From NCBI RefSeq assembly GCF_034092375.1, contig NZ_CP139302.1, positions 496,001 through 560,000 on the forward strand: DNA of 64,000 nucleotides, read 5' to 3'. The notes beneath the pieces are model-generated. The model did not search any database. It was given only the letters and a program-made list of their open reading frames with translations, and was not told the origin of the DNA. The translations under genes and the position numbers were made by a program. The stretch is from Prochlorococcus sp. MIT 1300 (lineage in GTDB: Bacteria > Cyanobacteriota > Cyanobacteriia > PCC-6307 > Cyanobiaceae). This document shows positions 61,869 to 64,000 of this stretch, piece after piece. The first letter of the stretch is position 1, and each line of letters starts with the position of its first letter.

Positions 61869-62912
61869 ATGACAGCTACTACTGCTCCTGCCATGAGAGG
61901 TGGTGGAAGGAATGAACTTCCACCCCATCTTGATGAAAACCTCTTAACACCACGGTTTTACACAACAGAGTTCGACAAGGCCGCTAAGACAGATCTTGAG
62001 ATTGCCAGAAAGGACTTTGAGGCGATGTTCAAGGAAATGGAGGCTGATTACAACCTCAAGCACTTTGACCGTAAAGCTTCACTTGATCGGCTCAATGAAC
62101 TTTCCCCTGAAGACAAAGCTATTTACGAAAGTTATCTAGTTCGTTCTGTTGTCTCCGAATTCTCGGGGTTTTTACTTTTTAAAGAAATCTCTAATCGCTT
62201 CAAAAAAGCTGGTAGACAGGAGCTCGGGCAATTTTTCCAGTTTCTATCTAGGGATGAAGCCCGTCATGCAGGATTCCTTGGAAGAGCCCTCAAAGCAGAA
62301 GGCATAAATGTTGACCTTCCTAACTTAGGGAATAAAAGAGCTGCAACATTTTTCCCATTAAGTTGGGTCTTGTACTCCTTATATCTCTCAGAAAAAATTG
62401 GATATTGGCGTTACATCCTTATCAACAGGCACCTAAAAGATCATCCTGAAAAGGCATGTGCCCCTCTTTTTGATTTCTTCGAGCCTTGGTGCCAAGACGA
62501 AAACCGTCACGGAGATTGCATAAATCTGATGATGCGTTGCTGGCCTGGAATGACCAAAGGCTTCCGCGGAAAAATACTTAGCAGGTTCTTCTTATGGACG
62601 GTTTTCCTTACTCACACACTCACTGTTTGTGAGCGAGGCGACTTCTACAAAATGTTAGGTATTGACCCTGTTCTTTTCGATGAAGAGGTAATCATTCAAA
62701 CAAATAATACCTCTAAAAATGCATTTCCTTGGGTGTACAAATTCGAGGACGGGAAGTTTTTAGAAATGCGAGTTCAAATATTAAATGCCTTTAAAAACTG
62801 GAGAAAAAGTTCAGGATTAGCAAAGCCTTTGGCCTTTAGCAAGTTTGTCTCATTAATGCTTAGACAATTTGCTCTTCCTATGGAGAAAACAAATTCAGTT
62901 AGATATTCTTAA
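61869..62912 (+). CDS. acsF: Mg-protoporphyrin IX monomethyl ester (oxidative) cyclase
   Basis: 347 residues, normal for AcsF/ChlA. Di-iron ligands fit the expected pattern: Glu97 (SEFSGF), E130-x-x-H133 (DEARHAGF), Glu175 (YLSEKIGYWRY) and E211-x-x-H214 (DENRHGD). The N-terminus LTPRFYTTEFDKAAK is diagnostic. It uses O2 to form the fifth ring, making divinyl protochlorophyllide. The start ATG at 61869 has GAAAGGGA ahead of it. The FdC2-like ferredoxin and Ycf54 lie just downstream on the opposite strand. Confidence 0.97.
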   Translation: MTATTAPAMRGGGRNELPPHLDENLLTPRFYTTEFDKAAKTDLEIARKDFEAMFKEMEADYNLKHFDRKASLDRLNELSPEDKAIYESYLVRSVVSEFSGFLLFKEISNRFKKAGRQELGQFFQFLSRDEARHAGFLGRALKAEGINVDLPNLGNKRAATFFPLSWVLYSLYLSEKIGYWRYILINRHLKDHPEKACAPLFDFFEPWCQDENRHGDCINLMMRCWPGMTKGFRGKILSRFFLWTVFLTHTLTVCERGDFYKMLGIDPVLFDEEVIIQTNNTSKNAFPWVYKFEDGKFLEMRVQILNAFKNWRKSSGLAKPLAFSKFVSLMLRQFALPMEKTNSVRYS

Positions 62913-62985
62913 AAAAATCCAGACAAGAAACTAATTAGAAACGAATGGATTAAAAGATAAGTTTCACTAACTAAAAAATATCAAT

Positions 62986-63351
62986 CTATAGGTCAAAGGG
63001 GCTTCCTGGTTGAGCGTTTACTTGACCTAAATACTTCCCAAATTGTTTTTCATACACTTCATCTTCATCTTGAGTTTCAAGTTCTAATGGCCCAGTAGCA
63101 CGAGCTATACAAAGCAATCCATAACCTTGTGCGACCATTTCCTGAGACAAACCTATACCAGTGGACTGATCCATAGACCCAGATAAAATTCGTACAGCAC
63201 ACGTTGTACAGCAACCATTCCTACAGGAAAATGGAAGTTCTTCGCCATGGGATTCAAAGCATCTAAGGATATAATCTCCCTCAGGCACATCAAAAGTAAT
63301 AGTTCGTCCCACTTTTCGATGATGGATAGTTACTTTGTGAAGAGGTTTCAT
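62986..63351 (-). CDS. FdC2-type [2Fe-2S] ferredoxin with C-terminal extension
   Basis: 121 residues, about 25 longer than photosynthetic PetF. Cluster cysteines C43, C48, C51 and C81 follow C-x4-C-x2-C-xn-C in SCRNGCCTTCAVRI and LLCIARA; the double cysteine and CAVRI match FdC2 of plants and cyanobacteria. The C-terminus LETQDEDEVYEKQFGKYLG is also FdC2-like. Plant FdC2 is required for normal chlorophyll synthesis, with defects at the cyclase step. Lying between acsF and ycf54, it is a strong candidate electron donor for AcsF. Confidence 0.88.
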   Translation of the reverse strand: MKPLHKVTIHHRKVGRTITFDVPEGDYILRCFESHGEELPFSCRNGCCTTCAVRILSGSMDQSTGIGLSQEMVAQGYGLLCIARATGPLELETQDEDEVYEKQFGKYLGQVNAQPGSPFDL

Positions 63352-63479
63352 ATCAATGAGCCAAAACAGAGGACAAGGGATTAAACAAAAGAATCATTAT
63401 TAAATGGATAGCTATATTAGAAATTAAAGGATCTAATTTGATAATCTTTCAATAAAGAAAGGTCAAAAGTAAATTCCTA

Positions 63480-63809
63480 CTAATTACTGCTTATATCTCT
63501 ATGAATGGGCGGCGGAGGAAGGGCACCTGCGTGAATATGTAATTCTTCAACGTCCAGTTCTGCTGTAAAGCATTCCCCACCAAAACGTAGTTTTAACCAG
63601 TCAATAGCTTTTGGGTCCTCTGCAACTACTGCTTCAACTCCATTACCAGGTAGCTTAAATTTCTCTACCAAGTCTGGCGAAAGGTACCAAAAAGCAACAT
63701 CCTTACCCTTTCTATTACGCCTTTCAGTAATTGTTTCACGTAACTGCCCATTGCCTGCCAATTGGCCTACAGGGGCAGAAAGTACATATAAAGACTTGGG
63801 GCCTGACAT
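63480..63809 (-). CDS. ycf54: Ycf54 (DUF2488), cyclase accessory protein
   Basis: 109 residues. Core motifs DVAFWYLSPDLVEK and VEAVVAEDPKAIDWLKLRFG (WLKLR at 71-75) match the DUF2488/Ycf54 pattern, in which a FW-(V/L) strand and a WLKLR helix are most conserved. Ycf54 binds AcsF and is needed for its accumulation and activity in Synechocystis and plants. This copy is more divergent at both ends than the Synechocystis protein, so I place it by motif and location. It lies 128 bp upstream of the ferredoxin on the same strand. Confidence 0.78.
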   Translation of the reverse strand: MSGPKSLYVLSAPVGQLAGNGQLRETITERRNRKGKDVAFWYLSPDLVEKFKLPGNGVEAVVAEDPKAIDWLKLRFGGECFTAELDVEELHIHAGALPPPPIHRDISSN

Positions 63810-63937
63810 AAATTAAAAGCCAATGAATATCCCTAAATTAATTATAGCCAATTCATCAGATGTCTTTTAAATGAAAGCTTCTGAAAAATCGAATAAAATC
63901 CAAAATCAATTATTTAATTGATTTGAAGCCTAACTAA

Positions 63938-64000
63938 GACATAAGTTGCAATTAAAAAACCCCACCCTTACGGTGGGGTTTTTTAATTGCAACTTATGTC
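63938..64000. repeat. 29-bp perfect inverted repeat with terminator core
   Basis: Left arm 63938-63966 and right arm 63972-64000 are exact reverse complements around a 5-nt loop (CTTAC). The inner part AAAAAACCCCACC / GGTGGGGTTTTTT is a good bidirectional intrinsic terminator. The outer 16 bp of each arm (GACATAAGTTGCAATT and its complement) are beyond what a terminator needs. The repeat may continue past the window. Confidence 0.9.

Follow-up and report, generated by a model that had tools for sequence, protein, structure and literature searches.

Two long-open questions of chlorophyll biosynthesis concern the aerobic cyclase: which protein supplies its electrons, and what Ycf54 does. Among described enzymes, the closest to the cyclase considered here is ChlAII (AcsF-II) of Synechocystis, which is encoded by sll1874 in the low-oxygen cluster chlAII-ho2-hemN. 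According to the text of Fujita 2015, ChlAI is ubiquitous, while Table 1 of the same paper gives Prochlorococcus NATL1A, NATL2A, SS120, and MIT 9313 as chlAI minus and chlAII plus, uncommented, and no chlR is listed in low-light Prochlorococcus (PMC4500134). That table is KEGG-based and was presented without a tree and without Ycf54 or a ferredoxin for the low-light strains (PMC4500134).

The partner proteins most similar to those described below are Ycf54 (PF10674, Slr1780 in Synechocystis) and FdC2, known as Fed2 in Synechocystis and as the Viridis-k ferredoxin in barley. Seven residues (A9, F13, E22, E26, D39, F40, and R82) are important or conserved in Synechocystis Ycf54, and the loss of D39 abolishes its binding to CycI (PMC5317394). 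In an AF3 model, R82 of Ycf54 is in contact with D216 of AcsF (PMC13297055). Barley FdC2 (VirK) was suggested to be the likely in vivo cyclase donor, and its cyanobacterial orthologue is essential (PMC8408499).

No description of the gene trio reported here, or of a Ycf54 in low-light Prochlorococcus, was found in the literature searched. A 2021 PNAS paper by Chen et al. reportedly described low-light Prochlorococcus as being without Ycf54 and as having evolved Ycf54-independent chlorophyll synthesis, and it is also said to have reported a D219G suppressor.

Organization of the locus

The window analyzed is a stretch of 64,000 nucleotides from Prochlorococcus sp. MIT 1300 (G000:C1:496001-560000), whose genome consists of one contig of 1.855 Mb, and the trio lies at the window's end. 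The gene acsF-II (61869..62912, plus strand) encodes a ChlAII-derived Mg-protoporphyrin IX monomethyl ester (MPE) oxidative cyclase of 347 aa; fdC2 (62986..63351, minus strand) encodes a C-terminally extended plant-type [2Fe-2S] ferredoxin of 121 aa, of the Synechocystis Fed2 / plant FdC2 type; and ycf54-II (63480..63809, minus strand) encodes a divergent Ycf54 homologue of 109 aa. Since acsF-II is convergent to the fdC2-ycf54-II pair, the trio forms a cluster, not one operon. The genes ycf54-II and fdC2 are probably co-transcribed, with a gap of 128 bp in the window and 7 bp in NATL-like loci. A candidate sigma-70-like promoter of this pair (TTAAAA-18-TATAAT, 63841..63870, minus strand) comes from a consensus scan alone, the hit number of which equals the shuffle expectation, and the same scan gave no same-strand candidate between ycf54-II and fdC2. 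Just past ycf54-II, a near-perfect palindrome of 20 pairs with a GC core and T/A arms (63946-63992) resembles a bidirectional terminator.

The initial annotation had taken these genes for a complete aerobic cyclase module. Its three gene identities and their positions hold, as the open reading frames lie at the coordinates above and the name Ycf54 could be proven through profile, fold, and residues. The clustering stands as well, but AcsF and Ycf54 turned out to be a divergent pair, derived from the low-oxygen ChlAII system, that replaces the ordinary pair. The trio looks like the sole oxygen-using system for chlorophyll ring closure in low-light Prochlorococcus. We consider it very probable that a cassette of ChlAII-derived AcsF-II, Ycf54-II, and FdC2 took the place of acsF-I and that the three proteins are partners in the manner proposed below. 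A more far-reaching proposal, which we hold tentatively and would not yet call probable, is that low-light Prochlorococcus may make all of its chlorophyll through a repurposed low-oxygen cyclase with its own Ycf54-II and a matched FdC2, the cassette being in the place of the aerobic enzyme, that AcsF-II, Ycf54-II, and FdC2 may form a dedicated complex of high O2 affinity, and that the supposed natural case of a Ycf54-free cyclase may not be one. As a compact natural set of three genes, the trio also lends itself to reconstitution.

The cyclase and its low-oxygen ancestry

AcsF-II scores above both NCBIfam cut-offs, with 445 bits for NF010172 (cut-off 391) and 327.5 bits for TIGR02029 (cut-off 192.5), and its diiron ligands E97, E130/H133, E175, and E211/H214 (E, ExxH, E, ExxH) are invariant in 67 aligned AcsF. 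By these curated models and ligands, it is an O2-dependent MPE cyclase of predicted activity. The acsF gene is single-copy in the window genome, from which ChlAI is absent.

Two AcsF trees were built, one unrooted and one rooted on alphaproteobacterial AcsF (Roseobacter, Roseinatronobacter, and Novosphingobium). In the rooted tree, the window AcsF falls inside the ChlAII clade (support 100/100), set apart from other ChlAII by a stem of 2.3 changes per site, while high-light AcsF and ordinary picocyanobacterial AcsF make up the ChlAI part (support 100/99). Both trees agree in grouping the window AcsF with the second acsF copies of Cyanobium and Synechococcus, to which it is about 60-67% identical. 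The split of AcsF-II from ChlAI is thus well supported at the sequence level, while its exact place within ChlAII needs care because of the long branches. A viral origin of acsF was considered and dropped, IMG/VR being without a relative.

The second acsF copies of Cyanobium and Synechococcus are located in low-O2 clusters together with HO2, HemN, an ArsR-type regulator, an ADO-like protein, and a Ycf54-like gene; these neighbours were named by reading their sequences, anchored by tblastn between loci. The trees show AcsF-II as a descendant of the ChlAII lineage and an orthologue of the AcsF of these clusters. Like ChlAII of Synechocystis, the picocyanobacterial relatives of the window AcsF thus sit in an HO2-HemN cluster, and the window AcsF shares the clade and all diiron ligands. 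Unlike Synechocystis ChlAII, it is the sole cyclase rather than a second isoform, has its own Ycf54 paralogue, and does not have HO2, HemN, or ChlR alongside. The locus also shows a major ocean phototroph whose sole cyclase is a low-oxygen isoform, and AcsF-II, coming from a microoxic isoform, might function at O2 levels below those that suit ChlAI.

The window trio is not linked to ho2 and hemN, but such linkage is found for the Cyanobium and Synechococcus orthologues and in L042, a contig of a Prochlorococcus metagenome-assembled genome. This contig carries (207-9071) hemN, HO2, ycf54-II', a glycosyltransferase-like gene, an ADO-like gene, and acsF-II', then the trio, and then arsR, so that two acsF and two ycf54-like genes lie within about 5 kb. 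If not chimeric, L042 shows both the origin of the trio and an intermediate. In addition, LLIV-type loci retain the arsR-pentapeptide-pdxH flanks of the low-O2 cluster. In the picocyanobacterial low-O2 clusters (L151-L164), a second ferritin-fold protein resembling aldehyde-deformylating oxygenase is encoded between acsF-II and ycf54-II; this ADO-like gene does not belong to the classical chlAII-ho2-hemN cluster.

The ferredoxin FdC2 as a putative electron donor

The window ferredoxin has a Fer2 domain with the spacing CX4CX2CX29C and a tail of 21 residues beyond the end of PetF. It groups with cyanobacterial FdC2, apart from the PetF of the same genome (40% identity), which served as the outgroup of the FdC2 tree. 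The trio FdC2 form one clade (100/100) that neighbours picocyanobacterial FdC2 and carries the signature residues I66, M72, K106, and F119. With FdC2, Fed2, and the barley Viridis-k ferredoxin, the window protein shares the cysteine spacing, the C-terminal extension, the RNGCCTTCAVR core, and an orthologous clade; unlike other FdC2, it adjoins acsF and ycf54, has the loop TGIGLS where they have EAMGLS, and ends in SPFDL where other cyanobacteria have LPLDE(E/D), usually LPLDEE. Phage ferredoxins, whose membership of the FdC2 type would be putative, reach about 40% identity at most.

High-light FdC2 (L165, L273, L274, and L275, high-light-like genus g18) are about 47% identical to the window protein and have a long stem of 1.15; the position of these divergent copies, beside htpG/hisZ-like genes, is still that of the ancestral Synechococcus locus. 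The tree places high-light FdC2 outside the trio FdC2 (99/82), while a joint clade survives the AU test (p 0.09).

FdC2 is present in 148/151 genomes of the family and in 116/116 genomes of the class, whatever the cyclase type. As FdC2 occurs in genomes without the clustering, it need not be encoded nearby to play its role. The clustering, from which a dedicated donor had been proposed, is evidence of linkage and no proof that FdC2 outperforms PetF. As independent comparative evidence from cyanobacteria, the locus supports the link between FdC2 and the cyclase that is known from barley and Arabidopsis. We infer that FdC2, reduced by photosystem I or by NADPH through FNR, would deliver six electrons to the diiron centre of AcsF-II and would be its dedicated or preferred donor.

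FdC2 could instead act here as a redox or iron sensor, or as an assembly or iron-delivery factor for the diiron enzyme, with PetF feeding the cyclase; we regard this as possible but less likely. Its presence with every cyclase type would fit such a role, and so would several previous results: in vitro, the cyclase needed far more FdC2 than PetF (60 vs 5 ug), Arabidopsis FdC2 was a poor acceptor from FNR, Synechocystis Fed2 was tied to the low-iron response, and a study including Arabidopsis FdC2 RNAi argued against simple donor specificity and proposed that FdC2 may act otherwise (PMC10947542). However, FdC2 mutants of barley show a block at the cyclase while XanL is at its normal level, FdC2 but not Fd1 rescues them, and FdC2 drives the recombinant cyclase (PMC8408499). 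Moreover, the only lineage in which the physical association with acsF arose is the one dependent on AcsF-II, which favours FdC2 as the donor.

Ycf54-II, a divergent partner of AcsF-II

The window Ycf54-like protein reaches only 16.8 bits against the Pfam family PF10674 (gathering score 25, E 0.008), and the 109-residue protein has no NCBIfam match. The name Ycf54 was therefore in need of proof by other methods, and we term the protein a divergent Ycf54 homologue without filing it in PF10674. A PDB sequence search with the window protein did not find Ycf54, which made a comparison by fold and profile necessary. Alignment of trio against canonical Ycf54 alignments by hhalign gave a probability of 94.9 (E 4.3e-8, 72 columns). 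HMMs built from trio sequences matched the Ycf54-like proteins of the low-O2 clusters with values from 1e-29 to 1e-10; for canonical Ycf54, their best value was about 5e-6. HMMs from the cluster proteins matched canonical Ycf54 at 1e-8, and the HMM hits were reciprocal. When an AlphaFold2 model of Ycf54-II (pLDDT 86.6) was compared by Foldseek with 350,542 PDB chains, the five best rows were all Ycf54 (3JSR, 5M2P, 3HZE, and 5M2U; E 3e-4 to 2e-3, TM about 0.5).

Residues A9, E22, E26, W41, and R82 are retained in 49/49 trio sequences and F40 in 35/49, while F13 (to Q) and D39 (to A/P) are lost in all 49. Profile, fold, and conserved residues together show that the third gene encodes a divergent Ycf54 of predicted function, and the Ycf54 tree, whose topology mirrors the AcsF tree, shows it as the co-inherited Ycf54 of AcsF-II. 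Ycf54-II thus resembles the Slr1780-type protein in fold, size, and the five retained residues; it differs in falling under the Pfam cut-off, in the two substitutions, in a C-terminal third that cannot be aligned, and in being tied to AcsF-II alone. In the window genome it is the only Ycf54-like gene, canonical Ycf54 being absent.

In AcsF, D216 is invariant everywhere, as is R82 in Ycf54-II, and Ycf54-II may dock on AcsF-II through these two retained positions and be needed for its assembly or stability. Position 219, the site of the D219G suppressor reportedly described by Chen et al. 2021, is N/T in low-light Prochlorococcus, N in the cluster copies, K in ChlAII (15/15), and D in most ChlAI. 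As Ycf54-II lacks D39 and AcsF-II lacks D219, the pair could have lost the old function. The AcsF of low-light Prochlorococcus might accordingly be Ycf54-independent, with the small neighbour a relic or a protein of another function and FdC2 there for other reasons. We find this unlikely, even though canonical Ycf54 is absent, D39 and F13 are gone, and residue 219 is at the reported suppressor position. Against it, ycf54-II adjoins acsF in 24/24 near-complete low-light genomes, is clearly constrained (23 columns invariant across 36 sequences), retains the predicted Ycf54 fold and the invariant R82/D216 pair, and was inherited along with AcsF-II from the low-O2 cluster, while position 219 is not D in ChlAII either. 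A divergent Ycf54 in low-light Prochlorococcus contradicts the reported claim of its absence and challenges the idea of Ycf54-independent chlorophyll synthesis in these strains; with this locus, both the 'Ycf54-free' claim in the literature and the question of which protein is the donor become directly testable. Besides, Synechocystis Ycf54 has been reported to interact with ChlAII (PMC4500134), which is in line with Ycf54-II as a working partner of AcsF-II.

Distribution and behaviour as a cassette

The family sample comprised 151 genomes, each at least 95% complete, in which low-light and high-light labels were derived from named relatives in the trees, a published table, and genome size. 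A window-type AcsF (72-100% identity) is the only acsF in 24/151 genomes, and fdC2 and ycf54-II are adjacent to it in all 24. The same adjacency, in identical order, is found at the named Prochlorococcus loci L035-L057, L059, L060, L062-L069, L071, L079, and L105. The remaining family genomes listed did not show it, and outside the family no neighbouring acsF and fdC2 were found in the listed places of 104 genomes, where 11 kb separated the nearest pair, that of G466 (tables read by eye). The initial annotation had made conservation across picocyanobacteria its check, and this did not hold up: in Synechococcus, Cyanobium, and high-light Prochlorococcus, the three genes lie at separate loci, and Synechococcus and Cyanobium loci have fdC2 without acsF or ycf54 beside it. 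The functional link that it proposed fared better: each of the low-light Prochlorococcus genomes examined has the trio intact, despite its changing neighbourhood. Ycf54-II was detected in 58/73 genomes with AcsF-II and in 0/78 without it (hand count from tables), and PF10674 is absent in the low-light genomes G010, G029, G039, and G056 and present in the high-light-like G017, G066, G094, and G116.

The low-light genomes share descent, so that the 24/24 are not 24 independent events and the strongest argument for the trio is positional. The trio occurs in at least four neighbourhoods (G070, G010/G039, G056, and G000/G052), beside arsR-pentapeptide-pdxH-ntrC in G070/G029/MIT 0701-type genomes, and always with unchanged internal order and orientation; it thus behaves as a unit or replaceable cassette. 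The proximity of the three genes is not chance. It is highly improbable that chance neighbours in one ancestral low-light genome merely stayed together by descent, as neutral hitchhiking on the shared ancestry would have it, because order and orientation persisted while the surroundings were reshuffled. In G010 and G039, the trio lies exactly between the acsF-I flanks, whose upstream and downstream gene families match those of Synechococcus-like G009 and G034 and of high-light-like G094, G116, and G151, showing a replacement of acsF-I by the cassette at the acsF-I locus in these two genomes. The comparison also shows that fdC2 left its ancestral locus and joined acsF and ycf54 in low-light Prochlorococcus alone. 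Under the cassette reading, FdC2 joined AcsF-II and Ycf54-II in the low-light lineage, and the cassette was then moved or exchanged as a unit, displacing acsF-I. High-light Prochlorococcus, which are generally nested among low-light strains, have acsF-I, fdC2, and ycf54 at the ancestral Synechococcus loci, so this history needs repeated loss or re-acquisition of acsF-I.

Some further genomes deserve mention. As a point against the proposed partnership, G005 has AcsF-II with no detected Ycf54-II; its locus (G005:C18, L162) carries AcsF-II and arsR, with no HO2, HemN, or Ycf54-II within 11 kb, and the genome retains ChlAI and canonical Ycf54, which makes it a possible test case for AcsF-II using canonical Ycf54. 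In the family genome G026 (genus g27, 1.8 Mb, 99% complete), neither acsF (at E 1e-20) nor FdC2 (at 1e-25) had a match. An assignment of the 72%-identical AG-402 loci to oxygen-minimum-zone lineages was considered and dropped, as they group with NATL-like G056. Finally, in the single-cell genome AG-402-G10 (L105:5638-6354), ycf54-II and fdC2 form a single ORF of 238 aa, in which the frame changes at a C-run; this may be a fusion of Ycf54 and FdC2 that exists in nature or the result of a sequencing error of one base.
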